From assembly GCA_003215415.1 (NCBI GenBank), contig QCKK01000001.1:1-64000 (forward strand): DNA of 64,000 nucleotides, read 5' to 3'. The translations under genes and the position numbers were made by a program. This stretch comes from Prochlorococcus sp. AG-409-N21. GTDB lineage: Bacteria > Cyanobacteriota > Cyanobacteriia > PCC-6307 > Cyanobiaceae. The notes below the pieces were generated by a model. It was not told the origin of the DNA, did no database searches, and saw nothing but the letters and a program-made list of their open reading frames with translations. Below are positions 14,683-40,472 of the stretch, piece by piece. Within the stretch, counting starts at the first letter, position 1. Each line of letters opens with the position of its first letter.

Positions 14683-14707
14683 TATTAATTATTATACTAT
14701 TTAAAAT

Positions 14708-15211
14708 ATGAACATAATTAATCAACTCAAAAAATGGAAAAATACTTCAAATACTTCAATTGTCAAAGCAGAGTTTAATCAAGTAAATAACATCGAAGAA
14801 AATATGCTTAGAGATAAATTAATTCGAATAGAAATAGAAATCAAGGAAACCAATATGAACATATTTGCTGCTCATGGAGTAAGTATAAGATCATACCTCG
14901 AACAACCTTATGGAATAATTGGCCAGTTTAGGAGAAAACTACACATAACTAATTCTCAGAAATCAGCAAATTGGCATACTAAATACTTGGCCAACCTGAT
15001 AAAAGAGAGAAAATATACCAAAGAAAGAATAGATAAGTTAACAGGAAAATACTGGAGCAATAAAGTCAAGGAATTTTCCACTTATTTGATCCTAGGAATT
15101 TGTGTTGCAGGAATTTTCGCAATTGGTGCAATGACATTTATATCACTTATTCCATTATGGATAGCAATAGTAATATTCTATTACTTTAATAGTAAAAATA
15201 TAAAAGTTTAG
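14708..15211 (+). CDS. Hypothetical protein with C-terminal membrane hairpin
   Basis: 167 aa. The first 115 residues are charged and helical (likely a coiled coil, DKLIRIEIEIKETNMN). Two adjacent hydrophobic segments follow at about 117-160 (YLILGICVAGIFAIGAM, FISLIPLWIAIVIFYYF). No recognised domain. It starts 26 bases after hemL and may share its transcript, but the much lower GC content suggests a different origin. Confidence 0.6.
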   Translation: MNIINQLKKWKNTSNTSIVKAEFNQVNNIEENMLRDKLIRIEIEIKETNMNIFAAHGVSIRSYLEQPYGIIGQFRRKLHITNSQKSANWHTKYLANLIKERKYTKERIDKLTGKYWSNKVKEFSTYLILGICVAGIFAIGAMTFISLIPLWIAIVIFYYFNSKNIKV

Positions 15212-15244: not shown

Positions 15245-16048
15245 TTATTTTCTTCCACCTACTATTACTGGAGGTATGCCATTAGAAGTACCAGGCAAAG
15301 AAGGAACAACTTGTGTTTTGCCATTCCATTTATCAAGGAACAACTTGAAAAGAACCTTGTTATCAAGACTTTTATTTAAAGTCTCATACCTTAGGGCTTC
15401 TTGCTCAGCTATTTTAACTTCGGTCTGAGCACGAAGAAGCTGTTGCTCGGCTATCTGCTTTTGTTCTATTGCTGCTCGATATTCTTCAGCAATTTCTAGT
15501 CCAGTTAAATCAAGTCCACGAACATCAACATAATCAAACTTATCAAGTTCTTCTGCTACTGTACGTTGAACTATTTCAGAAATATCACTCCATTTACTGG
15601 CTATTGTAACTAGTTCATACTGAGAAAAAACAGACTTTAAAGCCTTTAACAAAGATGGTTGAATAATTCGCGGATATACCTCTCTATCACTGTAGGCAAT
15701 AGTGCTATATACACGTCCTGCTTCTGTTGGACGAACCGCATACTTGATAGTTGCTGTAGCTTCAATAACTTGCAAGTCCTTGGTTAGAGTTGCAAACTTC
15801 TCTGGTCTTACTTGCGTACGTACATCAAAAGGATATACAGATTGAACAAAGGGGATTTTTAGATTTAAACCAGGCCGCCTAGAGGGTCCACTCACTTTTC
15901 CGAGAGTAGTAACGACTGCGACCTGACCAGCAGGCACAATAAATAAGGATTGGGTTATAAAGACAAAACCGGTAAGAGAAAGGGCAACAAGAAAGGTCGC
16001 AGAATTGCCAGTACCGTTAGGGGTGACATTTCTAAGAGGATTAGTCAT
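15245..16048 (-). CDS. SPFH/prohibitin family membrane protein
   Basis: Band-7 protein, 267 aa, with one N-terminal membrane segment (about residues 20-38) and a prohibitin domain (VPAGQVAVVTTLGKVSG, DVRTQVRPEKFATLTKDLQ). A helical region follows (EEYRAAIEQKQIAEQQLLRAQTEVKIAEQEALRYE, residues about 185-220) that typically mediates oligomerisation. Such proteins form rings in the thylakoid or plasma membrane and protect membrane complexes or bind FtsH-type proteases. The ATG at 16048 places the anchor correctly. No FtsH gene is adjacent. Confidence 0.88.
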   Translation of the reverse strand: MTNPLRNVTPNGTGNSATFLVALSLTGFVFITQSLFIVPAGQVAVVTTLGKVSGPSRRPGLNLKIPFVQSVYPFDVRTQVRPEKFATLTKDLQVIEATATIKYAVRPTEAGRVYSTIAYSDREVYPRIIQPSLLKALKSVFSQYELVTIASKWSDISEIVQRTVAEELDKFDYVDVRGLDLTGLEIAEEYRAAIEQKQIAEQQLLRAQTEVKIAEQEALRYETLNKSLDNKVLFKLFLDKWNGKTQVVPSLPGTSNGIPPVIVGGRK

Positions 16049-16117
16049 AAAGCAGGAGTATTAATAAGATTATATAAAAATAGTTATTAACATGCGTAAT
16101 CAAATATAAACAAAATA

Positions 16118-16318
16118 CTAAGCGTTATCAACCAAGGCCTTAGTCTTGGAGAGCACTGATAAATAAAGTTCTTCATCAATTGACCTGATATCATATTCTG
16201 TAGGGAAAGAACCATGAATGTGCTCGTGAACAATTGACCAGCAAGATCTTTCTAGATCATTGTTAGACCTATATAGGTCAAATGCCTTCTTGGCTAGAAT
16301 ATGAATTAAAGCAGTCAG
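16118..16318 (-). CDS. Small hypothetical protein (66 aa) with probable CTG start
   Basis: An open frame from 16318 to the TAG at 16118-16120 encodes an ordinary-looking soluble protein (ALIHILAKKAFDLYRSNND, then FPTEYDIRSIDEELYLSVL). The frame contains no ATG, GTG or TTG until its last dozen codons. The first candidate is CTG 16318, preceded at a spacing of six by AGGTGA, a good Shine-Dalgarno. The amino-acid pattern (aromatic, acidic, no repeats) resembles small conserved proteins of marine cyanobacteria, but no family name is recognised. Confidence 0.5.
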   Translation of the reverse strand: MTALIHILAKKAFDLYRSNNDLERSCWSIVHEHIHGSFPTEYDIRSIDEELYLSVLSKTKALVDNA

Positions 16319-16350
16319 TTCAGGTCACCTAAATAACGTTTGTAGATAAT

Positions 16351-16845
16351 TTATCTATAATTTTGATACTGCAAAGGGGATTCAATCTCGTCTTCATGAT
16401 CCTTTAAAAGAGAAATAACCTGCTGCAAATCATCCTTGCTTTTACTAGTAACTCGCAAACTTTCCCCTTGAATTGAAACATTAACCTTCTTTATATTATC
16501 TCGAATAAGCTTACTTATTGATTTAGCCAATTCCTGATTTAAGCCCTTTCGGAATAGCACTACCTGGCGAAGCCTATTGCCCGACGAACTCTGTGGATCC
16601 TGGAAATCAAAAATCTTAAGGGATAGATTTCGTTTGCTAGATTTTTGTCTAATGATATCTTGAATAGAATTTAAAGTAATGTCGCTAGAAGTTAGGATAA
16701 TAAGCTCGGCTTCATCAAGCTTCAATTCGCTATTGGAATCTTTTAGGTCATATCGCTGTGATAACTCTCTGCGTACCTGATCTATTACATTAACAAGTTC
16801 CTGGCGATCATATTCGGAAACCACGTCAAAGGAATAGCTTGGCAT
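16351..16845 (-). CDS. YajQ family nucleotide-binding protein
   Basis: Member of the YajQ/UPF0234 family, small two-domain proteins that bind cyclic di-GMP or RNA in other bacteria. The family N-terminus PSYSFDVVSEYDRQELVNVIDQ and the RYDLKDS segment near residue 35 identify it. KKVNVSIQGESLRVTSKSKDDLQQVI forms the C-terminal alpha-beta unit. The ATG at 16845 gives the canonical MPSYSFD start (164 aa); the longer frame to 16896 adds unrelated residues. It is a cytosolic protein. Confidence 0.93.
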   Translation of the reverse strand: MPSYSFDVVSEYDRQELVNVIDQVRRELSQRYDLKDSNSELKLDEAELIILTSSDITLNSIQDIIRQKSSKRNLSLKIFDFQDPQSSSGNRLRQVVLFRKGLNQELAKSISKLIRDNIKKVNVSIQGESLRVTSKSKDDLQQVISLLKDHEDEIESPLQYQNYR

Positions 16846-17000
16846 ATTTAAATTTAAAAATATACCAGTTCTAGCAAACAAAATACAAGGTGACAACCAG
16901 AAACAAATCTACGTAAATTGGGGATAGCAATGAAAGATCGAGGAAAGCGAAATAAACATGATAGTAATAAGTTATAATAGAAAAAGAAGGCAAATCTATT

Positions 17001-17438
17001 TTGAAAAATCCAAAACCAGTTGAATTTAATGATTTTTACAATGCACTTAAAGAAGTAAAAAGAGGAAAAGAACAATCTATGAACAGACTAAAAGAAATCT
17101 TATTGGTTTATACACAGCGAAAGGATAGCGAGAGTCTATTTGAAGACATAGGCAGGTTGTTTTGCAATGAAGTAATCGATGGATTAATAAGTTACTATGG
17201 TATAAACGAACTTGAGTATATATTAAATTCAGAAAAGTCTATAAAGGACTATCTGATAAAAAGAAACGGTAGTAGCATCATTGAATTCCTAAAACAGAAG
17301 TTAGAGGGGTATTATAATAAAGAAGAATTTAAAAAAGATTTGGAAGAAAAATGGAAAGTTGATCAGACTGAAATTCTAGAAAACATACCAGGACTTATAG
17401 AATATATTATTGATGGAATAATAGAAATAATCAATTAA
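17001..17438 (+). CDS. Hypothetical protein (145 aa)
   Basis: Starts at TTG 17001 with AAGAAGG nine to ten bases upstream. It is a helical, highly charged, soluble protein with no signal or membrane segment (FEDIGRLFCNEVIDGLISYYGINELEYIL; C-terminus EYIIDGIIEIIN). No family recognised. Its last four bases overlap the end of the convergent sulfotransferase-like gene. Low GC and lack of similarity suggest an accessory gene at the left edge of the 17-29 kb island. Confidence 0.6.
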   Translation: MKNPKPVEFNDFYNALKEVKRGKEQSMNRLKEILLVYTQRKDSESLFEDIGRLFCNEVIDGLISYYGINELEYILNSEKSIKDYLIKRNGSSIIEFLKQKLEGYYNKEEFKKDLEEKWKVDQTEILENIPGLIEYIIDGIIEIIN

Positions 17439-18313
17439 TTAGATTTATTATAGATCTGAAATTCACATGGAAATAGCCTGCTATATGTAGCAGAAAAAGA
17501 GTGTAGATTGGATGTTTGAAAAGGGTTCTTTAATTGACTTTTGTTTTCACTTAATTTTAACAGCCTAGTGACAAAGGTAACTCCAAAATGAGAAGTAAGT
17601 TGGTCGACTGCTATAGAAGAATAAACTTGAGAATCATAAAGGAATAGTCTGTTATCTGATAAAAGTGAAGAAAGATCAAGAGTAAAAGGTATATTACGCT
17701 TAAGCTTGGATAAGATTTGCTCCCTGTGAGGATAGAACAACTGTAATGTATGACTCCATGCAGGAGTTAGGCCTTTCTCAAAGAGTATAGCTCGTAAAAA
17801 GTTACTTAGGTTTTCTTGTTCATCCTTGGCTTCGAGAACAAAACCAATCTGGGGAGAAGAAGGATACCTGCTATTACAAACTTGTGAAATAATATGATGA
17901 AAACGGCCTAATTTGCTAAACTTTGGGAGGCGATCTAAAGGTGAATAATTAGAGTCTGAGCATTCACTTTGTATAAATTGATTAATCCGAGTTTTATAAT
18001 AATGCATCCATGATCGCATAAGTTGGACTGGATGTCTCGTAGGCATCAAAATCCTAGTATCAGAATAAAGTATTGAGATAATCTTTAAATACTTTATTTT
18101 AGCTTCTTGGGTAAGTGGTTCAGGTATATGGAAAGAATGTCCAAAAACAAGCCAATTCGTATCAGGACTTAAAATCAACTTACATGCTTGACTATTTTTG
18201 TTGACATTAATAGAGCTTGTAGGAATATATGCTATTGAAGATTCTTTTAAAGCCCTTGAGATACTTGTGCCACCGCATTTTGGTGTATGCAAATAGAATA
18301 GTCTTGATTTCAA
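17435..18313 (-). CDS. Sulfotransferase-like protein (HTPKCGGTS type)
   Basis: 292 aa with the P-loop-like 5'-phosphosulfate motif HTPKCGGTS at residues 9-17 and a 3'-phosphate motif PTRHPVQLMRSWMHY at 91-105. This places it in the PAPS-dependent sulfotransferase superfamily (Sulfotransfer_2-like). The C-terminal part has WSHTLQLFYPHREQI. The same layout and the segments CGGTS, NWLVFG, PVQLMRSW and WSHTLQLF recur in the gene at 46.8 kb, so the two are paralogues. The acceptor is unknown. It lies 61 bases downstream of the DUF6165 gene on the same strand, and likely belongs to that operon. Confidence 0.75.
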   Translation of the reverse strand: MKSRLFYLHTPKCGGTSISRALKESSIAYIPTSSINVNKNSQACKLILSPDTNWLVFGHSFHIPEPLTQEAKIKYLKIISILYSDTRILMPTRHPVQLMRSWMHYYKTRINQFIQSECSDSNYSPLDRLPKFSKLGRFHHIISQVCNSRYPSSPQIGFVLEAKDEQENLSNFLRAILFEKGLTPAWSHTLQLFYPHREQILSKLKRNIPFTLDLSSLLSDNRLFLYDSQVYSSIAVDQLTSHFGVTFVTRLLKLSENKSQLKNPFQTSNLHSFSATYSRLFPCEFQIYNKSN

Positions 18314-18374
18314 ATAGTAAATAAGATTTACTTAATGATAGCATGGTTTCTTCAATTAAGGGATTGGATCAATA

Positions 18375-18785
18375 TTATTCTGGTTGAGTTAAAGATGGAT
18401 AAGATTTCTCTTCAACAATAGCTGAAGAGTTATTAATATTAATCTCATGTTTAAGGTTTGCTCTCTTGTCATTAGTTTTATAAACAGAGCGTGCTAGATG
18501 AATAAACCTAGCGCCAAAGTCTGATCTAGATTCTAAGAGTCTAAGTTCATCCTCAATAAGCCAAAGAGAATGGTTGATATCATATAACTGTATAAATGTT
18601 TCATGAGATATATGTAAGTTGCTTTCATCTAGAATATTTAAAAGTTCTTTAAGTTCCTGAGAAACATTCTGAAGAGGCTTGCCTACCATATATTTTGATT
18701 TAATTTGTAGGATAGTAATCTTATCAACCAATTCTCCTATAGAAGACGGTATATAGAGCTGACCTCGAAGCTGATAAGGTAACAT
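18375..18785 (-). CDS. DUF6165 family protein
   Basis: 136 aa matching the DUF6165 pattern: SIGELVDKITILQIKSKY, HSLWLIEDELRLLESRSDFG, FIHLARSVYKTNDKRANLK and a C-terminal EEKSY. The function is unknown. The family is usually found beside TPR and glycosyltransferase genes of surface-glycan or protein-modification loci, as here. Its ATG at 18785 overlaps the stop of the upstream TPR-glycosyltransferase by one base (TAATG), so translation is coupled. Confidence 0.8.
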   Translation of the reverse strand: MLPYQLRGQLYIPSSIGELVDKITILQIKSKYMVGKPLQNVSQELKELLNILDESNLHISHETFIQLYDINHSLWLIEDELRLLESRSDFGARFIHLARSVYKTNDKRANLKHEININNSSAIVEEKSYPSLTQPE

Positions 18786-20464
18786 TAGTTTAAAGGAAGA
18801 GAAAAGCGAACAGCTACGGCCTTAGATAATCTTTCAAAAACGTCATCCCATTTCCCAGGAATCGATTGACGAAAGAGTTTAATAGTAGGGTACCAAAAAG
18901 TGTCGTTGTGTACCAATCCCCATCTCCAATCAGGTACATATTTAAGTAAAAGGTAGGTTTCCTTACCCAAGGCTCCGGCCAAATGTGCTACAGAAGTATC
19001 AACAGTTATAACCAGATCGCAATTAGATATAATCGCTGCTGTATCTAGAAAGCTCCAAGAAGAGTTAATAATTGACTGAGAAGAAACAAAAAGATGCTTA
19101 AAATTGCATGAATCGAATTGTTCGGAGCCGAAACCTTTCTGTAAGGAAATTAGCTTGAGATCCTTAATTTGAGATAGGAATCGAAAAGATGAAAGAGGTA
19201 TTGATCTGGAAGAAATTGCATTTTTGTCAAATTTAGGATCCGCTTGCCAATTAATTCCAATAATAGGTCTAGATTCTACTCTTAATATCCGTTTCCATTT
19301 AGAAATAGAATCATTAGGAGGCTTTAAATAGGGTTGAGAAAGAAGGGGCCTTTCAGGAGTAACATCTAAAAGTCTAGGAAGAGACATTAATGGTATCCAT
19401 GGCAAATCAAGATAATTTAAAACTTCATCAGGTGATAGAGGTTGAGAAACGATCCCCGAAGAAATAATAAGAGAGTGAAGTTTAGATTGAATTGATAACT
19501 TGAAAGGAATTCCTTTTTTGCGTAGAATAATACAATAACGTACAAAATGTATAGTATCGCCTAAACCTTGTTCACTGAGTATTAGAACAGCTTTATTATT
19601 TGAAAGAGTATGAGAATTATAGTTATCGGCAATAGGAGAAGAATGGAGCAAGCTATAATTAGAAGTGGCTTTAAAGCGAGATTCAAATCCAACAAGACCT
19701 TGAGGGTATAAACCTAGTAGCAAATAAGCAATAGATTGATTAAAGATGCAATCATGATTTAAGGGGTTTAGTTTAAGAGACTTTTTATAATGTACTAAAG
19801 AAAGTTCTATCTGACCAGACAATCGAAGTGAATTTGCTAAATTATAGTGAGAGTCAAAGTTAACAGGTTGAATTGATATTGACTTCATAAAGATAGAAAT
19901 GGCTTCACTATAGTTACCGGTTTTAGTGTAAACGAGAGCTAGGTTATTTAACGAATCAATAGATTTTGGGGATAAGGAAAGAGATTTTTCATAATGGTAT
20001 ATTGATAAATCATAAATATCTAGCTGGGAGAATGTATTGGCCAAATTATAGTGATAGATAAATATCGAGGAATCCAGACTAATAGATTTCAAGTAACAAT
20101 AAATAGCTTGTACAAATTTGTTTTGGAGTTTAAAGGAATTAGCCAGATTATAATAAGATCTAGAATAATTTGGATTAAGTTGAATAGACTCCTTGTAAAG
20201 GTTAATTGCATAAGGTAGTGAACCTAATTGCTTATAGCAAATACCCAAATTATTTTTAACAATATAAGAATCAGGATGAAGCCTATCTGCAATTTCAAGA
20301 CTCTCAATGGCCTGAGAATATAGCTTAAACTTATAGTTGATAGAAAATAAGTTCAATAAATCATCAAAACTTATGTTATTCTGCTTAAGAAGATCTATAT
20401 ATAATTTCTTTGCATCATGAAACCTTCCTTGTTTTAAGAGGCCAAGAGCTTTTTGAGAAGTCAT
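18785..20464 (-). CDS. TPR protein with C-terminal glycosyltransferase-like domain (A)
   Basis: 559 aa. Residues about 1-270 are tandem 34-residue TPR units (e.g. AINLYKESIQLNPNYSRSYYNLANS). Residues about 290-555 form a GT-B-like domain of the type fused to TPRs in many marine bacteria. It opens with SEQGLGDTIHFVRY near 296, and later has VDTSVAHLAGALGKETYLLL and RWGLVHNDTFWYPTIKLFR, related to the nucleotide-sugar end of GT9/GT41 enzymes. It likely glycosylates a protein or glycan partner recruited by the TPRs. Start ATG 20464. It is paralogous to the gene at 20909-22414. Confidence 0.82.
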   Translation of the reverse strand: MTSQKALGLLKQGRFHDAKKLYIDLLKQNNISFDDLLNLFSINYKFKLYSQAIESLEIADRLHPDSYIVKNNLGICYKQLGSLPYAINLYKESIQLNPNYSRSYYNLANSFKLQNKFVQAIYCYLKSISLDSSIFIYHYNLANTFSQLDIYDLSIYHYEKSLSLSPKSIDSLNNLALVYTKTGNYSEAISIFMKSISIQPVNFDSHYNLANSLRLSGQIELSLVHYKKSLKLNPLNHDCIFNQSIAYLLLGLYPQGLVGFESRFKATSNYSLLHSSPIADNYNSHTLSNNKAVLILSEQGLGDTIHFVRYCIILRKKGIPFKLSIQSKLHSLIISSGIVSQPLSPDEVLNYLDLPWIPLMSLPRLLDVTPERPLLSQPYLKPPNDSISKWKRILRVESRPIIGINWQADPKFDKNAISSRSIPLSSFRFLSQIKDLKLISLQKGFGSEQFDSCNFKHLFVSSQSIINSSWSFLDTAAIISNCDLVITVDTSVAHLAGALGKETYLLLKYVPDWRWGLVHNDTFWYPTIKLFRQSIPGKWDDVFERLSKAVAVRFSLPLN

Positions 20465-20908
20465 AAACAGATCCTAAAAAAATATTTACTAATGTCAAGG
20501 AAAGCTAGGGGAATATAAAGGGGATCAAGACGTGAAAATAACTAGAGGGTATTATGGAAACTAACAGATAGAAAGAAATTGGTTAAATATGATATTGAAG
20601 TAAGAGATGAAAAAATAGAAGGTGTTAATTTAATGTATTATGCGGTAGTTATCGAAAGTTGATGAAATAGAAAAGCACATAGTTAATGCAAATCTTCAAG
20701 AGATATTATCAAAATCAAGAAAGTATGGCAATTAGGGACAAAGAATAAACAGTATTAATAGCAAGAATGAAAAATGCTTGTAGTATGGAAGAGGATACTG
20801 TATCAAAACAAATCAAAGATGTTCAACTCCTTCTGCCTTTTACTATTGGTTATAGCGGCTTACTCTAATCTATTTCTTGCAATAAAGAAATCTAGATAAA
20901 CGGTATAA
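20465..20908. other. Intergenic gap, no gene seen
   Basis: 444 AT-rich bases between two TPR-glycosyltransferase paralogues. Only short open frames occur on either strand (longest about 33 codons, from ATG 20767). No tRNA, terminator with a T-run or recognisable gene remnant was found. The promoter of the 18785-20464 gene must lie here. Confidence 0.6.
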
Positions 20909-22414
20909 TTATCCATATCTTGATTTTATCGCTAGGGATATTTCACGAATTACTGAACTCCATCCCCCTAATCTTTTCTTTCTAAATATTTTAATAGATG
21001 GATACCAGAATGTGTTCGAATTCTCTAATCCCCAACGCCAATCTGGTACATAATTTAGAAGAAGCCAAGTTTCCTTCCCAAGTGCTCCTGATAAATGCGC
21101 TACAGCGGTATCAGTAGTTATAACAATGTCGCAACATTGTATGATGGCAGCGTTCTCAAGAAAGTCCCATTCACTGGAAATGACTTCCTGGCATGAAACA
21201 AATCTGTCAGCAAATGAGCATTCTGTAATCTGATCTGAGCCATAGCCTTTCTGAAGTGATAATAGAGTTAAAGTACAACTTTCAATAAAAGGTTTTAATT
21301 CCTGCAAAAGAATAGATCTACCAATTAGGTTACGCCTTTTAGATTCAGGACTACCCTGCCAGTTAACTCCAATTAAAGGCCTAGTCTCTTCAGAGATGAT
21401 ATTCGACCATTTATTTACTAAGGATTTAGGAACCTTAACGTAAGGTGAGGTTACTAAAGGGTTTTGAGGAGTAACATTTAATAAGTAAGGCAAAGATAAC
21501 AGTGGAAGCCAAGATCCTAATTTAATGTTTTCAGCTTCTTTTGACGATATAGGATTGGGATGAATACCAGAAGCCTTGATAAGAGAATGTAATTTGGTTT
21601 GAGCACTAAATAAGATATTAGTTTTACGGGATAAAAGATAAGGAATATACCGCATAAATTGGATAGTATCCCCTAGACCTTGTTCAGAAACGACTAAAAC
21701 ATCATGATCAGTATTGATAAGATCCTTAGATAACAAAGGCAAGCTTGGGGAAGCATGTACAATTGAATTAGATTTACGAAGTTGCAGCCTGGATTGATAA
21801 TATTTAAAGCCGTTAATATAATCTCCCTGTAAAAGCAAAGATTCCGAAAGATTCCTATGTGCAATAATATATCCGGGGGAAGTCTCTAGGGCCTTATAAT
21901 AATACCGAATAGATTTTTTAATGTCTCCTAGTTCCTTGAATAAGTTACCAAGGTTATTAAGAGTTTTAGGATGAGTTGGATTGATATTAAGGGCCATATT
22001 ATAATATTTAAGTGAGTTCGGATATTGATTTAATTCATGGTAAGAAATAGCTATATTATTGATAGGATCAATATAAGCAGGGTCTAATTTAATTGCCCTA
22101 ATAAAAGACTTCCGAGCTTCCTTATAGTCTCCCGAGGCTAGTAAAGCTAAGCCTAGATTATTGAAAGCTATAGGTGATTTATTATCAATAGAAACAGACT
22201 TTTTAAAATGGACAATTGACTTAGTGATATTATTACCATGGTAGTATATTATGCCTAAATTTAATTCAATTTGGAAATGAGAAATAGAGTGCCTTAGAAG
22301 TATAAGATATAGATCTTTAGCCTTTACAAATTGACCATTATCAAACATTAAGTTTGCTTCTTTAAAGAGTGAATTGAGTTTTTGTTTACCAAGTCGTATA
22401 CTATTGTTAGACAT
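20909..22414 (-). CDS. TPR protein with C-terminal glycosyltransferase-like domain (B)
   Basis: 501 aa, the same architecture as the neighbouring 559-aa gene but with fewer repeats: TPRs to about residue 205 (e.g. SLKYYNMALNINPTHPKTLNNLGNL), then the glycosyltransferase-like domain from about 230. Matching blocks include SEQGLGDTIQFMRY near 243, TPQNPLVTSPYVKVP, GVNWQGSP, TDTAVAHLSGALGKETWLLL and RWGLENSNTFWYPSIKIFR. It probably arose by duplication of the neighbour. ATG 22414 follows the TPR-sulfotransferase gene by 49 bases on the same strand. Confidence 0.82.
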   Translation of the reverse strand: MSNNSIRLGKQKLNSLFKEANLMFDNGQFVKAKDLYLILLRHSISHFQIELNLGIIYYHGNNITKSIVHFKKSVSIDNKSPIAFNNLGLALLASGDYKEARKSFIRAIKLDPAYIDPINNIAISYHELNQYPNSLKYYNMALNINPTHPKTLNNLGNLFKELGDIKKSIRYYYKALETSPGYIIAHRNLSESLLLQGDYINGFKYYQSRLQLRKSNSIVHASPSLPLLSKDLINTDHDVLVVSEQGLGDTIQFMRYIPYLLSRKTNILFSAQTKLHSLIKASGIHPNPISSKEAENIKLGSWLPLLSLPYLLNVTPQNPLVTSPYVKVPKSLVNKWSNIISEETRPLIGVNWQGSPESKRRNLIGRSILLQELKPFIESCTLTLLSLQKGYGSDQITECSFADRFVSCQEVISSEWDFLENAAIIQCCDIVITTDTAVAHLSGALGKETWLLLNYVPDWRWGLENSNTFWYPSIKIFRKKRLGGWSSVIREISLAIKSRYG

Positions 22415-22463
22415 CTATTGTATATTAATGAGTGTTATTACTAAGAAAAAGGTCATAAGGTTA

Positions 22464-24191
22464 TTAAGTATCATAATTAAAGAAAGAAATCCATTCTTCT
22501 AAATAAACCATTGAATTGCAAAAGTGCTTTTTATAATTAACCCACTTAAGTATTGAATCCTTATATATGCTTTGGGTAACCTGGGATGAAGAGGGGGTCG
22601 ATATAAAACCACGTGCCTTGGCAGTTAAAGTAAAATTAGATATATTTTGGTCCATCGGAAGGCCTAAAAAGTCAATAATATCTCTAGAATATGAATAGTA
22701 GTCAGATATAAGAGATTCATATCTGACCATACGATAATCAAAAGAAAGATTCCTTTGATAATCAACCCATCCTTTCATAACATTGTTATAAAATATAGAT
22801 GAAGATTCTAAAGATACAAAATTGGACATAGCGTCATTGGGTTGAAAAACCTGCTGCATACAGGACAGGACAGTATCGCATGGATGCCTATAAGAAAACA
22901 ATATCTTTGCAGTAGGAAATAGAATATTAATAAGTGGAATAGAAATTGTGCTTAAAGGTAACTTATCAATTATAAGATTATTTGAATTAGGAGAATTTAC
23001 AGAAACCAAATTAAGGTATTCGGCTCTAAGGTAATCAATTTGACTATGTGTGAGTTCAAATAATTGTGATAAATCTATTTTAAAGGAATCTCGAATAATA
23101 GATTCGAGATGTAGTAACATTGGCTTCTCTTCAATAACATCAATATTAGTATGACTTCTCAAGATAGTATCTAGAAGAGTTGTACCTGACCTAGGGAAAC
23201 CTAGTAGGAAGGCAATATTATAATTCGTACTATCAGATGACTTGTTGGTAGTTTTAGTAGTAGATTTATTAATTAAAGCATTCTTGTATTCCTGTATTTT
23301 GTCTAACCACCTTGAAGGGTTAGTTTGACTGTAGAGAGGATTTTGCTGGCTTTTAGTAAAATAGTAAAATGCTTTATCATAATTGGCCAATTTGTCCTCA
23401 ATAAAACCCCTGTAACTCCAGTATTGAATTACTATATTAGATGGTTGAGAATTCAACCATTTATCCGATATCAATAAGATTGTCTGCTTTGCCTGGTGAT
23501 ATAGTTTTTGTCTAAAGTATAGCCTTGCCTTGTATAAATTAATTTCATTGATAATAACATTATTATTCTCGTGCATAGTCAAAGATTCTGCTAGTGCCTC
23601 AAGATTATTAGATTTTTCATATATTTCAAAAAGAGTATGATAACCAGCCGCAAGCTCAGGGTCTAACTTTATACTATTTAGAATAATAGGTTCAGCTTGA
23701 TCTAAATTTCCTAAATAAAAAAGTACCTGGGCCAAGCAAAGATGTGATAAAGGTAATTCAGGGTGAGATTTAATAAACTGTCTTGCTATATTTTCAGCCT
23801 CATCTAACTTGCCTAAAAGGCTTAGAATAGATATAATCTTTACATATATGATGGATAATGATGGCTTTAAAACTAGTGCTTTCCTAATATAAAATTCTGC
23901 TTCAGTTAACTTACCTTTATCCATAAGAAAGTTCGATAGATTAATATAAATAAATTCCGCTTTTGGATATAAGCCAATGCCATATTTATATAAAGAGAGG
24001 GCTTTGTCCTCTTCACCTAATTGTTGATATATAATCGCAAGATTGGAAATAACACCTGGATCTGAATAGCCTTTACTTAAAGCCTTACTATAATACCTTT
24101 CAGCTAGGAGTAGATCACCATCAACTTGATATTGATATCCCTTAGAAATTAAATTTTTAGAATTTAAATTTGTTTTTTTTGACATAGCCAA
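22464..24191 (-). CDS. TPR protein with C-terminal sulfotransferase domain
   Basis: 575 aa. Residues about 10-285 are TPR repeats (e.g. ALSLYKYGIGLYPKAEFIYINLSNF). A PAPS-dependent sulfotransferase domain begins near residue 328 with GFPRSGTTLLDTILRSH (5'-phosphosulfate loop), then IEEKPML, DKLPLSTISIPLINILFPTAKILFSYRHPCD (3'-phosphate motif) and a C-terminal RYESLI. It is of the Sulfotransfer_3 kind rather than the HTPKCGGTS kind of the two stand-alone genes. First gene of the reverse-strand cluster. Together with the downstream GT genes it suggests sulfation and glycosylation of a common acceptor. Confidence 0.85.
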   Translation of the reverse strand: MAMSKKTNLNSKNLISKGYQYQVDGDLLLAERYYSKALSKGYSDPGVISNLAIIYQQLGEEDKALSLYKYGIGLYPKAEFIYINLSNFLMDKGKLTEAEFYIRKALVLKPSLSIIYVKIISILSLLGKLDEAENIARQFIKSHPELPLSHLCLAQVLFYLGNLDQAEPIILNSIKLDPELAAGYHTLFEIYEKSNNLEALAESLTMHENNNVIINEINLYKARLYFRQKLYHQAKQTILLISDKWLNSQPSNIVIQYWSYRGFIEDKLANYDKAFYYFTKSQQNPLYSQTNPSRWLDKIQEYKNALINKSTTKTTNKSSDSTNYNIAFLLGFPRSGTTLLDTILRSHTNIDVIEEKPMLLHLESIIRDSFKIDLSQLFELTHSQIDYLRAEYLNLVSVNSPNSNNLIIDKLPLSTISIPLINILFPTAKILFSYRHPCDTVLSCMQQVFQPNDAMSNFVSLESSSIFYNNVMKGWVDYQRNLSFDYRMVRYESLISDYYSYSRDIIDFLGLPMDQNISNFTLTAKARGFISTPSSSQVTQSIYKDSILKWVNYKKHFCNSMVYLEEWISFFNYDT

Positions 24192-24417
24192 GACCTCTAC
24201 TCAATTTACAATGCGAAGATAAGGGTTGCTATTTTTATAATTATAATGCATAATAAGAGTTACAAAGAAAATTGGGTCGATTTTATTATAATAGATGTTT
24301 CCCAAACTATTTTTTTCACTAATCAACATTGATATTGTATGAATTTAAACTCTAACATCGAGATAGATTAAGACGCTATAGTCTGATCGAAAGTAATTTA
24401 TCCTAAATTCAGGGAAA

Positions 24418-25161
24418 ATGAAGGAGAGAGTAGGCAGAAATTCATATTATCCTTTCTATTCTGTTGGTCTAGAGCTATACAAACAAGGTGCCTACATAGC
24501 TTCGATAGAAAATTTTAAAAACAGTATTAAGCAACATAAAAACTGGAAAGCTTACCAAGTAGTTGGATGGTCACTATATATGACTAATTTAATCGAAGAA
24601 TCAATCCTTGCTTTTACCCAATCGCTTGCCATTAAAACCAACTGGAATAGCTATCAGGGACTTGGATTGGCCTTAATGAAATCAAGAAGATATCCAGAGG
24701 CAATAAAAGCATTAGAAAAATCGGTTTCAATAAAATCAGAGTGGAAGTCATTTAATTCATTAGCATGGTGCTATGGATATTTAAATCATTACGAAAATGC
24801 AATTACCGAATTTAAGAATTCAATAAGGATAAAAGAAGATTGGAATTCATATTATGGACTAGCATCAGCACATTTTCATTTAGAAGAATTTTATAAAGCT
24901 GCGAATGCTTACAAAAAATCTATTAGCTTAAAAAGAAGCTGGAAGTCCTACCATGGACTTGGTTTAACATTAAGCAAGCTAGAGAAATACGAAGACGCTA
25001 TTATTGCTTTTCAAAATGCAAACTCAGATAAAGAGTTCTGGGATTCACACAGAGGGATAGGAGAAGCTCTTTTAAAATTAGATAGATTTTCAGAATCAAT
25101 CCATTCCTTCACAAATGCTTGGAATATGCATAAGCAGATAAAACTTATAGATTCAATATAA
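24418..25161 (+). CDS. Tryptophan-type TPR repeat protein, possibly the 5' part of a split gene
   Basis: 247 aa of near-perfect 34-residue repeats with a distinctive pattern: SIxxKxxWxSYxGLGxAL, then xxYxEAIxxF. At least six units are visible from residue about 40, and Trp occupies the same place each time, unlike the usual TPR consensus. The TAA stop (25159-25161) is followed in the same frame by 34 sense codons running into the SGNH gene at 25264, so the two may once have been one TPR-SGNH gene. Start ATG 24418, divergent from the reverse-strand TPR operon. Confidence 0.75.
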   Translation: MKERVGRNSYYPFYSVGLELYKQGAYIASIENFKNSIKQHKNWKAYQVVGWSLYMTNLIEESILAFTQSLAIKTNWNSYQGLGLALMKSRRYPEAIKALEKSVSIKSEWKSFNSLAWCYGYLNHYENAITEFKNSIRIKEDWNSYYGLASAHFHLEEFYKAANAYKKSISLKRSWKSYHGLGLTLSKLEKYEDAIIAFQNANSDKEFWDSHRGIGEALLKLDRFSESIHSFTNAWNMHKQIKLIDSI

Positions 25162-25263
25162 TTTTGCATTGCAAAAGCTTCTGTTTCAGACAATAAATTC
25201 CTAAAATATCTTTCTAGTTATTCGAAGTTAGTAAAGCATGAATCGGAATTAAAAGATAAAGAT

Positions 25264-26559
25264 ATGCGAATAGGATTAAACTTAAATCACATCAAAGAAT
25301 TTCTTCTGAATGGATATATTAATCCTTTAGTTATAGATTGCTATGCAATGGAAGTTTATAGATATTCAGAGCAATCTTATTTCCAATATGAAGATGAAGA
25401 TGAAGATACTAATCTTCCCTTAGACAAGAAGAATATTACTGAAAAAGATAAGAGAGTCAAGCTTATAGGTAAATCTTATAATATTATCTCCTTCGGAGAT
25501 TCTCATGGAGTTATCTTTAGCAACCTAGATTATATAAAACACTATCCATTGAAAGCTGGCACTGCTTATAATATCAACAATCCTAATTCAACATCAGGTT
25601 CTAACAAAGAGATTCTAAACAAATTGAAGGATTATGAGCCATCACAAACAAGCCTAATTATTACTCTTGGAGAAGTAGACTTAAGAAGACATATACATAA
25701 ACAAGCAAGGGTACAAAATAAGCTTCCGGAGATCGTGACGATAGATGCGATTAATAATTATATGGATTTCATTGATAGCATATCATCTTTAGGCTATAGC
25801 ATACTTGTAAACACTCCTCATACGGGTGGAGGGGATAAAGTATCGTCAATTCCAGAGATTGAGAGAAATGATACATGTGAATATATGAATATAATCTTAA
25901 AACAGAAGTGCAATAAACGTCGGTTGAGGTGTGACGGATTGTTTGATGTAGTGGTCAATAGACTCACACGGAAAAATATATTAAAATACTATCGAGATCC
26001 ATCACATTTACATTTACCAAATACTAGTATTGGAGAATATCTACAATCAAATTTATTAGGTAGGTTATTTAGATCAAATTACTCATATGATCAAAGTTCA
26101 GAAAACAACGCAAATCTAGATTCGATATGTAGAGTTCTGGTCAGCGACATTCCAGGTTGGAATAGCTTTAATTTATTTCAAACCAATGTTATTTATAAAA
26201 ATGCTATGTTGATCTCAGATAACAGAATGAAAATTGCATTAATCGAGTTACCTTTCCCTATATTAATCCAGAAATTAATAACGGAGATTGAAGTAAGTCT
26301 AGGTTTACCCATTGTAAATGCTCATGCAATATACCAAAGTTGCGATCCTTCAGTAAAAATCAATCAGGAAAACGTATTAAAGGGAATTGCTCATATGACA
26401 AGAATTAAAAATAGCCAGAAGGTAAAAATAGAGCATGACTTCTCACAATATAAGTTTAGTAATATGCATTGCCGTTATATATTAATAACAGTCTCTAAAG
26501 GACTAAACTCAAAGTTAACTAAGTTTGATATTACTAGGATGCGATATATGAATTTATGA
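25264..26559 (+). CDS. SGNH/GDSL hydrolase-like protein
   Basis: 431 aa. An SGNH-hydrolase-like region spans about residues 70-260: IISFGDSHG at 74-82 (nucleophile Ser80), GEVDLRRH at 136-143, and a C-terminal DPSHLHLP near 244-251 giving the Asp-His pair. Such domains deacylate or acylate carbohydrate and surface polymers. Residues 290-431 form a separate unrecognised domain that ends TRMRYMNL. The first ATG is 25264, without a clear Shine-Dalgarno. The frame is open upstream to the TAA of the TPR gene, so the true protein may be longer or fused. The carbamoyltransferase gene follows after 128 bases. Confidence 0.7.
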   Translation: MRIGLNLNHIKEFLLNGYINPLVIDCYAMEVYRYSEQSYFQYEDEDEDTNLPLDKKNITEKDKRVKLIGKSYNIISFGDSHGVIFSNLDYIKHYPLKAGTAYNINNPNSTSGSNKEILNKLKDYEPSQTSLIITLGEVDLRRHIHKQARVQNKLPEIVTIDAINNYMDFIDSISSLGYSILVNTPHTGGGDKVSSIPEIERNDTCEYMNIILKQKCNKRRLRCDGLFDVVVNRLTRKNILKYYRDPSHLHLPNTSIGEYLQSNLLGRLFRSNYSYDQSSENNANLDSICRVLVSDIPGWNSFNLFQTNVIYKNAMLISDNRMKIALIELPFPILIQKLITEIEVSLGLPIVNAHAIYQSCDPSVKINQENVLKGIAHMTRIKNSQKVKIEHDFSQYKFSNMHCRYILITVSKGLNSKLTKFDITRMRYMNL

Positions 26560-26687
26560 ATTCACCTTTACTACAAATATATTTAATACTTTAAAGGAAA
26601 GGATGATAGGCAATTAACATAAGATAGTAGTGATTACTTTAAATCAATCCGAAAATGCTAATATAGTTTAAGCTCATCAAACAGAAA

Positions 26688-28592
26688 TTGACAGTTATAG
26701 GAATTTCTTGCGGGCATGATGCAAATGCATGTCTCATTGTCCGAGATAAATTTGTTTACTATTCGAATGCAGAAAGAAATGATCGATTCAAAGGTTCTTC
26801 TAGTTATATAGAAGCAATAAAAGCGGTTATTCGTTCTTCTGGAATCGTTACTAGTCAAATTGATACTATTATGATAACTAATACTCAAGCATGCGCATTG
26901 CCAATTGAAAATGAAAAACTCTTTATGGTTAAGGAATGGATAAAAGCTCCAGTTTTATTTAGATCTGACAACTCTCATGTCTACAAATGCAACTCAACGA
27001 GTCCTAAATACTTTTCTTATCAGAATTCATCTAATTGGTTCCCAACACCAATGTCTAATCACTGTAAGACTTACGATGAATTAGAAGCCCTTGCAAATTC
27101 ATCAAAACAAGCACATCCTAGGGATTTCATATTTAAAGGAAATTTTAAATTTGAAGGCTTGGATATAAGTGGATATTTTGTGGAGCATCACTTTGCTCAC
27201 GCAATAAGTGGTCTTGTAAGAAATAAAGATTGTCAACTAATAATTAGCTTGGATGGGTCAGGACATTCTCCTGAGTTAATAGCAAAGTTTCCTTACATCG
27301 CGGGGATAAGTATATTAAATCCTTCAAATAAAATAATTATTGGTCCTCCGCCATTATTTATGGGAGGAATATTATATAGTTGGGCTTCAAAATATTGTAA
27401 TTTGAGCGAAGGGAAGTTTATGGGTCTGGCTTCCTATTTTAATATCAATCAATCATTTACTAATTCAAAGCAATGGATAGATCTCCTTACGAGGCTAGAA
27501 ACACTTTTTGATAGTTCTTGTAAGAGTGTATATAATATAAAAATTGAAACTATAACAAAACAGATGAACTTTATACTATCTGATCTAACAAAATACTTTG
27601 AGGGTAAATTAGTATTAGACTATAGTCAGATTACAAAAAGAGATGTCTATAAAATCAATTTGCCAGAAAGATGGAAAATACTAATTGCTGGAGTTGTACA
27701 AGAAGTTTTTTCCCGTTTATATATTAAGAGCATCAAAAATCAGATAAGCTTCTTTAAAAGAAAAGGTCTATCAGCAAGAAGAGTTCTAATAACAGGAGGT
27801 TGTGTTCTAAATTGCCCTTCAAACAGGATTTTATGTGAAACTTTTCCTGAAATAGATTTTAGTTTTGATAATGCTTGTAATGATGAAGGGTTATCAATAG
27901 GTGCGGCATATGTCCTGAAGTTTATGAAAGGATATGACTCTAATAATAATCTTACTTCTCTTATAAATACGCCCTTTCTAGGAGATCATCCTTCACATGT
28001 AAAAGAAGCATTAATAATAGCAAAATCTGATGAACAACTTAGTTATAAGTATAGCTCAAATCTCAAAGATGATTCGGTTATTATTGGCAATCAATTATTA
28101 GAAGGTAAAGCTATAGTTTTGGCTAATGGCAGGTATGAATCTGGCCCTAGAGCACTTGGCAATCGATCTCTTATCGCTCTTGCAGAACTAGAAAAAACAC
28201 ATTGGATGCTTAATAAGATTAAAAGGCGCGAATACTGGAGACCAATAGCGCCTGTGATTAGAGAAAAAGACTTCGATGATTTTTTTATTGGGCCTAAAAA
28301 TAGCAATATGCTTATGACCAATTCAGTTAAATTTCCAGAAAAATTGCCTGGCACAACTCACGTCGATGGTTCTGCGCGAGTCCAAGTATTACATGATAAG
28401 TCTCATTTATTATGGTATCTGCTTGAATACCTGGAAGAAATGGGTCATTGTCCAGTATTAGCCAATACATCCCTCAATCAATCTGAAGAGCCTCTAATAA
28501 ACTCTGCTCCAAGAATCGTATCACTAATGCTGGACGAACCTGATATAGCCTGTGCTTATATAGATGGCTGGATAATAAAAAAGGTTGATTAA
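26688..28592 (+). CDS. Carbamoyltransferase, NodU/CmcH family
   Basis: 634 aa, transfers the carbamoyl group of carbamoyl phosphate to a hydroxyl via an adenylate, on sugars or antibiotics. The N-terminal Kae1-like domain has GISCGHDANACL and the metal-binding VEHHFAHAISG; SLDGSGHS is the adenylate region. The C-terminal domain carries ITGGCVLNCPSNRIL, GRYESGPRALGNRSL, EYWRPIAPVI and ANTSLNQSEEPLINS. The first in-frame initiator is TTG 26688, giving the right N-terminus. No Shine-Dalgarno is visible. Acceptor unknown; in this island a glycan is the best guess. Confidence 0.9.
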   Translation: MTVIGISCGHDANACLIVRDKFVYYSNAERNDRFKGSSSYIEAIKAVIRSSGIVTSQIDTIMITNTQACALPIENEKLFMVKEWIKAPVLFRSDNSHVYKCNSTSPKYFSYQNSSNWFPTPMSNHCKTYDELEALANSSKQAHPRDFIFKGNFKFEGLDISGYFVEHHFAHAISGLVRNKDCQLIISLDGSGHSPELIAKFPYIAGISILNPSNKIIIGPPPLFMGGILYSWASKYCNLSEGKFMGLASYFNINQSFTNSKQWIDLLTRLETLFDSSCKSVYNIKIETITKQMNFILSDLTKYFEGKLVLDYSQITKRDVYKINLPERWKILIAGVVQEVFSRLYIKSIKNQISFFKRKGLSARRVLITGGCVLNCPSNRILCETFPEIDFSFDNACNDEGLSIGAAYVLKFMKGYDSNNNLTSLINTPFLGDHPSHVKEALIIAKSDEQLSYKYSSNLKDDSVIIGNQLLEGKAIVLANGRYESGPRALGNRSLIALAELEKTHWMLNKIKRREYWRPIAPVIREKDFDDFFIGPKNSNMLMTNSVKFPEKLPGTTHVDGSARVQVLHDKSHLLWYLLEYLEEMGHCPVLANTSLNQSEEPLINSAPRIVSLMLDEPDIACAYIDGWIIKKVD

Positions 28593-28783: not shown

Positions 28784-29437
28784 TTATTTTATGTATTTAC
28801 TATTAATAGTTACCTTTTTCTTGGTCATTCCTGCAATTGTAGCAAGCGCAAACATACCAAGCAATGCGCCTCCCAGCATTAATCCTGCACCTTGACTGAC
28901 TCCAGCTCCTACAGCAACAATTATTGAATCACTAATTAGAAGACTTACAATTAAAGCTGGAGTAAATAGACGCCATCGCGTTCCTCCTATTCCAATTGCA
29001 TAGCTAAGGAAATCAAAAAGTCCCGTCATCAATAGTCCAGTCATTAAGAAGAAATTTCCCTCTAATTGATTGTGGTTAAAGCCTTCAATCCTCTTCATGG
29101 CTTTTACTCCAACCAAGCGTCTAACAGGTTCACGCCCGTAGTTTCTTGCTATAAAAAATGCTACTTGACAAAATATAAGGTCAGCCAAAACAATGGTGAC
29201 ATATCCTGTTTTAAACCCCAAGAGAGAACCGGCTAATAGTGAATATGCTGAACTTGGCAAAGCAGGCAGGATAATGCTTATACCTCTAAGTAGCATTATT
29301 CCCAAAGGGGCCCAGATCCCCATACTTTCAACTGTTTGACGAAGAGGCTCTATCCCATACATCTGTATGAAATACACTAAGAGGACAAATGCTCCAACAA
29401 AAAATGAAATCTGAAGAAACTTCCGTAATTTATTCAT
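28784..29437 (-). CDS. TVP38/TMEM64 (SNARE-associated) family membrane protein
   Basis: 217 aa with about five hydrophobic segments. It has the DedA/TVP38 core: GIWAPLGIMLLRGISIILPALPSS (re-entrant loop), SAYSLLAGSLLGFKTGYVTIVLAD, and GTRWRLFTPALIVSLLISDS. Relatives act in lipid or undecaprenyl-phosphate movement in the inner membrane. The ATG at 29437 precedes a basic N-terminus and the first helix. It is monocistronic by the look of its surroundings. Confidence 0.85.
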   Translation of the reverse strand: MNKLRKFLQISFFVGAFVLLVYFIQMYGIEPLRQTVESMGIWAPLGIMLLRGISIILPALPSSAYSLLAGSLLGFKTGYVTIVLADLIFCQVAFFIARNYGREPVRRLVGVKAMKRIEGFNHNQLEGNFFLMTGLLMTGLFDFLSYAIGIGGTRWRLFTPALIVSLLISDSIIVAVGAGVSQGAGLMLGGALLGMFALATIAGMTKKKVTINSKYIK

Positions 29438-30706: not shown

Positions 30707-30807
30707 CCAAGAATGAGCCTGCATTTATTAGTGTTGTAAGCGATAGGACAAAACCCAGAAAGATCTGCCTAAATTAAGAGAATCCTTTATTAAGTCTTTA
30801 GTAAGTG

Positions 30808-31584
30808 ATGAATGAACTCCGCCAGAGAATCTATGAACAGATAATTAACAAAACTCCAGGTGGCAGAACTTCTTTATTCAATAAAATATGTGGTGTTACT
30901 ATTTTTATTTCGATATTTTTTGCAGTAATAGTTACTGAGAATTCAATAGATTATCAATTTGGAGATCAAATAGACCTATTAGACTGGATAATTGGAGGTT
31001 TATTTTGTATAGAATATATCTGTCGCTTATGGGTAGCACCTCTTGAAGACAAATATGGCGTGGGATTGAAAGGGGTTTTGCGTTACATGATTTCGCCAAT
31101 GGCAATTATAGATGTCATTGCAATCATCCCTTCATTTTTTGGTGTACGCGCTGAATTAAAGATTTTAAGAATCATCCGTCTACTTCGAATATTGAAGATT
31201 GGAAGAAGTGAGAAATTCAAACAAAGTATATTTCACTTCAATTATGCCCTTCGATCAAAGAGTCAAGAACTACAAATTTCAACTTTTTATACGATATTGC
31301 TCTTACTAATTAGTAGCACATTTATGTATCTTGCCGAGTCATCTATTCAACCAGAGTTATTAGGGTCAATTCCGAGATGTCTATGGTGGTCAATTACAAC
31401 TGTATGTGCTGTTGGATATGGCGATTCAGTTCCAATTACAGCAATTGGTAAAATAATTGCATCAGTAACTTCTCTTTTGGGTATTGCTGCAATAGCGATA
31501 CCTACAGGAATACTTGCTTCAGGTTTTAGTGAGTCACTAAGTGTTCAAGAAAAGGTCCTTAGAGTAGAAAAATTAGAAAAGTAA
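30808..31584 (+). CDS. Voltage-gated-type potassium channel (VIC superfamily)
   Basis: 258 aa from ATG 30808; an adjacent GTG at 30805 is the alternative. Six membrane segments: S1 at about 25-45, S2 near IIGGLFCIEYICRLWVA, S3 near AIIDVIAIIPSFF, an S4 with regularly spaced arginines (RIIRLLRILKIGR), then the S5-pore-S6 unit. The selectivity filter is TTVCAVGYGDSVP. This is the full voltage-sensor plus pore architecture of a Kv-like bacterial channel in the plasma membrane. No cytoplasmic RCK or cNMP domain is present. Confidence 0.9.
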   Translation: MNELRQRIYEQIINKTPGGRTSLFNKICGVTIFISIFFAVIVTENSIDYQFGDQIDLLDWIIGGLFCIEYICRLWVAPLEDKYGVGLKGVLRYMISPMAIIDVIAIIPSFFGVRAELKILRIIRLLRILKIGRSEKFKQSIFHFNYALRSKSQELQISTFYTILLLLISSTFMYLAESSIQPELLGSIPRCLWWSITTVCAVGYGDSVPITAIGKIIASVTSLLGIAAIAIPTGILASGFSESLSVQEKVLRVEKLEK

Positions 31585-39276: not shown

Positions 39277-39430
39277 TTCAAACTGGTAACTGAACAATAT
39301 CAATCTCACTTTATCCAGTACAAAGCATTCCATCATGCTAGTGTTTATTTTATACTGTCTAAAGTAACAATATTTACACAAGCAAGTCTTTGCTGATTTT
39401 GAATCATAATGAACTTGCTTAACAATACAA

Positions 39431-40096: not shown

Positions 40097-40192
40097 TTGG
40101 ATCATTTAATACAAAGGAGCGTATCATTTAAAAATACTATTTTGACTTAATCAGCCAAAATACACAGAATAATCAACTGAACTCACTTCAAA

Positions 40193-40438: not shown

Positions 40439-40472
40439 AAAATATATAAAAATAAATAATTCTAGGAACACA

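Follow-up and report, generated by a model that had tools for sequence, protein, structure and literature searches.

Flexible genomic islands of the replacement type, which carry genes for exposed structures, have been described (PMC4033161), the islands of picocyanobacteria are rich in glycosyltransferases (PMC2441476), and in Prochlorococcus rearrangements have been reported close to islands (PMC6102989). At the level of single enzymes, the cytoplasmic O-glycosyltransferase FlmG of Caulobacter binds flagellins through an N-terminal TPR domain and carries a C-terminal GT-B domain (PMC7591256).

We analysed a gene island of Prochlorococcus sp. AG-409-N21, located in a window of 64,000 nt (the whole stretch of DNA under study), from one assembly of a genome that is 65% complete. 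Like the described replacement islands (PMC4033161, PMC2441476), it has conserved borders and, across relatives, differing content of surface-glycan type in the same slot; it differs from them in that much of the cargo consists of TPR-tethered modifying enzymes together with a DUF6165 module. A replacement-type surface-glycan island is an already known kind of locus, and the association of DUF6165 with TPR-glycosyltransferases is its new content.

Gene content of the island

An ORF check confirmed that every gene named in the original prediction is present within 11 kb: the sulfotransferase-like gene, DUF6165, two TPR-glycosyltransferases, the TPR-sulfotransferase, TPR-SGNH and the carbamoyltransferase. 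The features of the island and its flanks are:

15245–16896, reverse: left flank after glcD-hemL, prohibitin-type gene (15245–16048) and YajQ-type gene (16351–16896)
17001–17438, forward: u145, 145 aa, function unknown, left edge of the island
17435–18313, reverse: ST1, sulfotransferase-like by motif only
18375–18785, reverse: DUF6165 protein (Pfam, E=4e-13)
18785–20464, reverse: GTa, TPR and GT9-like glycosyltransferase (Pfam TPRs; model of the glycosyltransferase domain)
20909–22414, reverse: GTb, TPR and GT9-like glycosyltransferase (Pfam TPRs)
22464–24191, reverse: TPRST, TPR and Sulfotransfer_3 (Pfam, E=3e-23)
24418–26559, forward: TPR-SGNH gene with one in-frame stop (TPR part 24418–25161, SGNH part 25264–26559)
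26688–28592, forward: carbamoyltransferase of NodU/TobZ type (Pfam N and C domains)
28784–29437, reverse: VTT/DedA-type membrane protein (Pfam VTT_dom)
30805–31584, forward: ion-channel gene KCh in the right flank, colinear with futA in relative loci L107, L202 and L208
38248–43210: right boundary with futA-like binding protein, 2OG oxygenase, OprB porin and glyQ (Pfam)

The reverse-strand genes from 18375 to 24191 had been taken as one operon. Tight junctions agree with this, but GTb and GTa are spaced by 445 nt, and we therefore read the strand as TPRST-GTb and GTa-DUF6165-ST1, not clearly as a single operon. Scanning the island for promoters and terminators was uninformative, with fewer sites than in shuffled sequence. 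Its GC content is 0.323 vs 0.365 in the remaining window, with no significant difference in GC3 (p=0.08). Since no long DNA repeats were found within the island, recombination at the DNA level between its TPR genes was rejected.

The supposed TPR-SGNH pair turned out to be one gene, a single reading frame (24418–26559) cut by an in-frame TAA at 25159–25161, to which an assembly error could contribute. With the stop read as X, the product is 41% identical across 658 aa to an intact relative, and the relatives inspected whole are single ORFs. The SGNH ORF alone (25264–26559) matched no Pfam family and, when scanned against the genome contigs, found no relatives. Within the TPR-SGNH family the blocks G-[DE]-SH, GE-x-D-x-R and D-x-x-HL are mostly conserved, and five of nine members have sub-threshold matches to Lipase_GDSL_2 (21.2 vs 32.9 bits for member 1).

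The carbamoyltransferase matches both Carbam_trans domains (N, 43.8 bits, cut-off 24; C, 131.7 bits, cut-off 27) and, in the PDB, TobZ, GdmN and other carbamoyltransferases (E 1e-22 to 4e-25). It shares the N and C domains and the PDB matches with NodU/TobZ enzymes and differs from NodU in missing the equivalog cut-off (95 vs 1000 bits). Homologues lie near TPR-glycosyltransferases in L100 and L124.

The two sulfotransferase candidates are unequally supported. TPRST reaches 83.6 bits for Sulfotransfer_3 (gathering score 27) and contains the PAPS loop GFPRSGTT; its close subfamily (at least 41% identity) occurs in 12 other genomes of 300 sampled, and members adjoin a TPR-glycosyltransferase in L091, L298 and L304. 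ST1 shows a PAPS-loop-like HTPKCGGTS and a RHPVQLMRSW motif, but no family or structure match was found in Pfam, NCBIfam or PDB sequences, so that sulfotransferase-like is a reading of motifs. A paralogue of ST1 lies in the window at 46798–47718.

A hypervariable slot with an exchanged left border

The island occupies a hypervariable chromosomal slot between clpP-ilvC-cobD-sugar phosphotransferase on the left and futA-OprB-glyQ on the right. Among relatives its cargo varies, comprising O-antigen ligase/polymerase family genes, GT2 glycosyltransferases, TPR-glycosyltransferases, DUF6165, TPR-SGNH and carbamoyltransferase.

The left border is exchanged in this genome, so that YajQ now adjoins cargo. 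The hemL-PHB order is kept in the 20 fetched relatives, and in 16 of the 18 that were readable in an empty-site comparison, a different, colinear backbone (F2, F3 and further genes) comes next after YajQ, with no island. We rejected a simple insertion after YajQ, because in the genome itself F2-F3-F4 lie on another contig, directly after clpP-ilvC-cobD-Bac_transf, which indicates that the borders were exchanged. An assembly error could contribute here as well, though one relative, L241, independently shares the order YajQ-u145-ST1-TPR-glycosyltransferase. There it continues with SIS_2 (GmhA-type), epimerase, GHMP kinase, nucleotidyltransferase, GDP-mannose dehydratase and DegT, placing a heptose/nucleotide-sugar cluster beside homologues of two island genes. 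A query with a heptose-type GHMP kinase found no match in the 65%-complete genome of AG-409-N21.

Locus L107 shows the cobD-linked arrangement, running from cobD-Bac_transf-u145 through TPR-SGNH to KCh-futA and colinear with the window from u145 onward; its slot also holds RmlD, two GT2 genes and an O-antigen ligase/polymerase family gene. Homologues of u145 (35–36% identity over the full length) were found only at this same edge, after YajQ in L241 and after the cobD-linked sugar transferase in L107. The right-border genes flank TPR-glycosyltransferase, DUF6165 or TPR-SGNH cargo in L086, L100, L102, L107, L129 and L134, with glyQ only in L136. In total, futA or glyQ is present in 7 of 55 loci, which were fetched mostly irrespective of position and for which we estimate a chance number below 1; three relatives reveal the left border, and L107 alone reveals both.

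KCh was considered as the anchor of a hotspot and rejected. Long arrays of TPR enzymes adjoin it in genus g79 and TPR arrays do so in several others, but in many relatives no such array lies within 15 kb of it. We take futA-glyQ and cobD-Bac_transf as the better borders. Since the slot borders were not seen beside the g79 arrays, the slot is not the sole home of such genes. For the VTT/DedA-type gene, the homologue in L209 is close to KCh, that in L086 adjoins a homologue of ST1, and that in L088 lies near a glycosyltransferase-DUF6165 pair.

The TPR-glycosyltransferase and DUF6165 module

GTa and GTb, 42% identical across the aligned region, both have strong TPR matches in Pfam. For Glyco_transf_9 they score 21.7 and 18.6 bits, below the cut-off of 22 bits, and we therefore file them as GT9-like, not as GT9 members. 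An AlphaFold (AF2) model of the glycosyltransferase domain (pLDDT 93) supports a GT-B fold of GT9 type: in a Foldseek search of the PDB all nine matches with E≤0.001 were of this type (WaaC, WaaF, 3tov, TibC), with TM-scores of only 0.39–0.53 and identities of 10–14%. WaaC/WaaF and TibC (PMC4358343) are thus the best structural matches of the domain, from which GTa and GTb differ by these low values and by their N-terminal TPRs. Phage copies of the TPR-glycosyltransferase were distant matches only, in six records.

The DUF6165 protein (PF19662) scores 49.7 bits against a gathering score of 27, and the start of its gene overlaps the stop of GTa. DUF6165 lies adjacent 3′ to, or is fused with, a TPR-GT9-like glycosyltransferase in 33 of 43 entries, among them Planctomycetes, SAR116, Dependentiae and one deltaproteobacterium. 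TPR-glycosyltransferase and DUF6165 form a small module that recurs in distant bacteria, either as adjacent genes or fused into a single protein, as in L120 and L147, and the fusion suggests a dedicated subunit. The AF2 model of DUF6165 is a four-helix bundle (pLDDT 83.9); its fold had no match in the PDB at E≤0.001, its profile none among PDB sequences, and the searched literature contained no paper on it.

Proposed function and alternatives

We propose, with a probability of about 0.72, that this island represents one variant of a hypervariable locus for surface decoration, of the replacement type and with cytoplasmic, TPR-docked cargo enzymes. As the island contains no polymerase, flippase or exporter gene, we infer the end product from relatives. 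The surface-decorating role suggested earlier gains positional support from the slot of L107 and from L241, which hold polysaccharide and nucleotide-sugar genes; the joint, conserved gene set that went with it does not hold across 300 genomes. Decoration of the surface is likely, on a protein or a glycan acceptor.

The cargo enzymes would work within the cytoplasm, on precursors of what becomes exposed at the cell surface. The TPR-glycosyltransferases would transfer a sugar, with DUF6165 as a four-helix partner subunit; the sulfotransferase and carbamoyltransferase may cap this sugar, and TPR-SGNH, interrupted here, would edit acyl groups. The precedent of FlmG suggests that docking of each enzyme to its acceptor is the task of the TPR domains. 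GTa and GTb are likened to it by architecture, an N-terminal TPR domain followed by a C-terminal GT-B-type domain within 500–600 aa. To our knowledge, flagella are absent from this lineage, unlike in Caulobacter. Selection would favour a surface that differs towards phage and grazers.

A possible though less probable alternative is a cytoplasmic protein-modification system, in which the TPRs select a secreted or giant surface protein that is O-glycosylated and sulfated before export, and not a polysaccharide. The FlmG-like architecture (PMC7591256), the autotransporter heptosyltransferase TibC among the structural matches (PMC4358343), the DUF6165 fusions, and a TPR-enzyme array adjoining an RTX/cadherin/DUF4214 protein in L097 would fit. 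However, the neighbours of the slot in relatives are polysaccharide genes, WaaC and WaaF, whose acceptors are glycolipids, match the model at least as well as TibC does, and neither the island nor its immediate surroundings contain a gene for a giant surface protein.

That the island is a decaying set of horizontally acquired genes without present function appears improbable. The nonsense codon in TPR-SGNH and the low GC content would agree with decay, but all remaining ORFs are intact, and the PAPS-loop, GT9 and carbamoyltransferase motifs and the overlapping glycosyltransferase-DUF6165 junction are preserved.

Still less probable, and largely refuted, is the strongest form of the original prediction, a fixed, co-inherited pathway of low-light Prochlorococcus with all eight genes working on one product. 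The genes do share a span of 11 kb, and several of their junctions are tight, yet the full set was found in no other genome among 300 sampled from the family. DUF6165 occurs in 76 of these, TPR-SGNH in 18 and the ST1 family in three (its own and two others, with two copies in G060 and one in G019), without significant co-occurrence (SGNH vs DUF6165, p=0.58; sulfotransferase subfamily vs DUF6165, p=0.08); moreover, the TPR-SGNH gene is interrupted. Conservation is confined to the slot and to small modules (TPR-glycosyltransferase with DUF6165, TPR-sulfotransferase beside TPR-glycosyltransferase, TPR-SGNH) and does not extend to one joint pathway.

We give very little credence to a role of the island in photosystem II assembly or heterotrophy, as part of the TPR expansion of low-light Prochlorococcus deduced from Pfam counts (PMC11357015), in which TPR Pfams are enriched and Synechocystis TPR proteins acting in photosystem II assembly are cited, since many of the TPR-bearing genes examined are fused to glycosyltransferase, sulfotransferase, methyltransferase, 2OG oxygenase or SGNH domains and surface-glycan genes lie in the slot.

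The TPR-tethered enzymes of these cyanobacteria (glycosyltransferase, sulfotransferase, methyltransferase, 2OG oxygenase and SGNH) might constitute a combinatorial code of cytoplasmic modification, with interchangeable TPR domains choosing the acceptor and with DUF6165, which occurs far beyond cyanobacteria, as an obligatory subunit of the glycosyltransferase branch; we regard this as speculative and rather doubtful.

DUF6165 gains a specific candidate partner, the TPR-GT9-like glycosyltransferase. The unexplained richness of low-light Prochlorococcus in TPR genes, ascribed to photosystem II assembly before (PMC11357015), receives a proposed role, and with a slot of surface variation placed between named core genes, strain variation and phage sensitivity become directly comparable.

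Gene content of the island

All open reading frames named in the original prediction were recovered at their positions:

17435-18313, reverse strand: sulfotransferase-like gene ST1
18375-18785, reverse strand: DUF6165 gene
18785-20464, reverse strand: TPR-glycosyltransferase GTa
20909-22414, reverse strand: TPR-glycosyltransferase GTb
22464-24191, reverse strand: TPR-sulfotransferase TPRST
24418-26559, forward strand: TPR-SGNH gene
26688-28592, forward strand: carbamoyltransferase gene

DUF6165, the TPR repeats, Sulfotransfer_3 and both carbamoyltransferase domains matched Pfam above the cut-offs. The glycosyltransferase matches of GTa and GTb were sub-threshold (21.7 and 18.6 versus 22 bits), and this assignment was therefore tested by structure. 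The glycosyltransferase domain of GTa, modelled from a 36-sequence alignment (mean pLDDT 93), had nine PDB matches with E ≤ 0.001, all of them GT9-type enzymes (Veillonella GT9, WaaC, WaaF and TibC). ST1 is sulfotransferase-like by motif only; neither a family nor a structure match was obtained for it.

The TPR-SGNH genes, originally taken for a pair, are instead one gene, a single frame whose sole stop is a TAA at 25159-25161. With this stop read as X, the product aligns across it with an intact relative (41% identity, 658 residues), and the remaining homologues inspected at full length are single ORFs joining TPR and SGNH. The TAA reflects a recent nonsense mutation or else an error of assembly or amplification. 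Taken alone, the SGNH part yielded no family match; GDSH, GE-x-D and D-x-x-HL-type blocks are mostly conserved among nine relatives, five of which gave a weak Lipase_GDSL_2 match.

The proposed reverse-strand operon holds as tight spacing within two groups, TPRST and GTb (about 50 nt apart) and GTa, DUF6165 and ST1 (overlapping or about 60 nt apart), but not clearly as one operon, given the 445 nt between GTb and GTa. A promoter scan found no more sites than in shuffles.

DUF6165 beside TPR-glycosyltransferases

DUF6165 lies directly 3′ of a TPR-GT gene (TPR plus GT9-like glycosyltransferase) on the same strand in 27 of 43 entries, often overlapping its stop, and six more carry it as a C-terminal fusion to the TPR-GT. 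The resulting fraction is biased by the choice of many loci for their TPR-GT and by a few places fetched twice. A search starting from DUF6165, read against the TPR-GT search, gave the same pairing pattern. Among the ten exceptions in the 43 entries, two (L273 and L060, a single place retrieved in duplicate) adjoin the close TPR-ST subfamily (TPRST relatives) instead. Fusions include family genomes (L120, L119), a Synechococcus MAG (L130) and Planctomycetes (L147, L170), and the two genes stand side by side in, among others, SAR116 (L161), a deltaproteobacterium (L172) and Dependentiae (L189). In a second recurring association, a TPR-ST adjoins a TPR-GT (L091, L298, L304), with the order TPRST-GT-unknown-DUF6165 in L091. 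A gene of about 195 aa separates TPR-GT and DUF6165 in two genomes (L091 11413-12003, L096 5405-5986); a neighbour of similar size (L096 8815-9411) is a 2OG oxygenase.

The predicted DUF6165 structure is a four-helix bundle without a significant PDB match, and no paper naming DUF6165 was found in the literature searched. Its association with TPR-GT9-like enzymes is new and genuinely useful.

Distribution of the gene set

In the 300-genome samples of the family, 76 genomes carried DUF6165, 18 a member of the TPR-SGNH family, 12 besides ours one of the close TPR-ST subfamily and three, ours included, one of the ST1 family. TPR-GT relatives are common, with good matches across many genera and frequently multiple copies per genome. 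Co-occurrence with DUF6165 was absent for SGNH (p = 0.58) and weak for the TPR-ST subfamily (p = 0.08), which was found in none of the other SGNH-bearing genomes. Conservation of the cluster, proposed earlier as a check, was not observed among the 300 family genomes: the parts do not co-occur as a set, and the exact combination was therefore seen only in this genome.

TPR proteins that carry a sulfotransferase or methyltransferase domain form long arrays in genus g79, with about ten TPR-enzyme genes running consecutively in L094 (G108:C1:1398001-1418000), 2OG oxygenases among the array genes (L096) and an RTX/cadherin/DUF4214 protein at the end of the L097 array (G318:C12). The L094 and L097 arrays are head-to-tail and comprise sulfotransferase, methyltransferases and GT. 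In genome G183, an intact copy of the ion-channel gene KCh (30805-31584, forward strand, in the window) lies inside a TPR array, and a second copy is degenerate with five internal stops (G183:C1:1400610-1401056). A second patch of the island's kind occupies 45788-51274 of the window, with a 2OG oxygenase (45788-46393), an ST1 paralogue of about 35% (46798-47718) and a TPR protein (50396-51274).

TPRs are enriched by Pfam count in low-light Prochlorococcus, for which a role in photosystem II assembly was proposed (PMC11357015). The partners of the TPR domains here point to transfer and modification chemistry instead.

Borders of the slot and its cargo

The left flank, hemL-PHB-YajQ (PHB, a prohibitin-type gene), is conserved, and 16 of 18 relatives lack the island and have a common series of backbone genes (F2, F3, F4 and onward) after YajQ. 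In our genome the F2-F3-F4 block is found on a different contig, immediately after clpP-ilvC-cobD and Bac_transf, which encodes a sugar phosphotransferase of a kind that initiates surface polysaccharides. In genome G011 (L107), cobD-Bac_transf is followed by a homologue of u145, the gene at the island's left edge (17001-17438, forward strand, in the window). This locus is colinear with the window from u145 to futA and its cargo, ahead of KCh and futA, consists of RmlD, a GT47-like gene, two GT2s, TPR-SGNH and an O-antigen ligase/polymerase family gene. These arrangements are most simply explained by an exchange of the Bac_transf/u145 and YajQ/F2 junctions in our genome. At 13451-14900 of our genome's L262 (G000:C4), the cobD-linked sugar phosphotransferase directly abuts the ordinary backbone gene F2, a junction reciprocal to the exchanged island border. 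The new junction is common to genome G060 (L241), as YajQ-u145-ST1 (47%)-TPR-GT (42%), followed by a nucleotide-sugar/heptose-type cluster (SIS_2 isomerase, epimerase, GHMP kinase, nucleotidyltransferase, GDP-mannose dehydratase, DegT aminotransferase). Bac_transf also lies near TPR-GT and DUF6165 in L115 and L121.

The right border, futA-2OG oxygenase-OprB-glyQ (38248-43210), recurs in seven of 55 loci (L086, L100, L102, L107, L129, L134 and, glyQ only, L136), nearly all picked for TPR-GT, SGNH or carbamoyltransferase content independent of position; by our own estimate, fewer than one would be expected by chance (loci up to about 20 kb, genomes roughly 1.7 Mb). In L100 a carbamoyltransferase homologue, a TPR-GT and DUF6165 come immediately before the border genes. 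Across several genera, the slot thus uses one common toolbox, with a different selection each time. The interval from KCh to futA, empty in some relatives, encodes a further TPR-tethered enzyme in the window (36139-38025, reverse strand), a TPR protein whose C-terminal part weakly matches 2OG-Fe(II) oxygenases.

Caulobacter FlmG shows that, in the cytoplasm, a GT-B domain at the C-terminus can have its protein acceptor chosen by a TPR domain at the N-terminus (PMC7591256), and GT9-fold enzymes are able to heptosylate secreted proteins, as TibC does (PMC4358343). The island's TPR-GTs share with FlmG the TPR plus GT architecture. The polysaccharide genes that neighbour the slot in relatives lead us to slightly favour a glycan or lipid-linked acceptor over a protein one. 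Sulfate and carbamoyl groups would be added as terminal decorations, and DUF6165 may be needed for activity. Among 14 control genomes, DUF6165 occurred in one, that of Caulobacter vibrioides, the organism of FlmG.

We conclude that the gene set is real and its cargo unusual, and that the locus is a replacement-type surface island of an ordinary kind.
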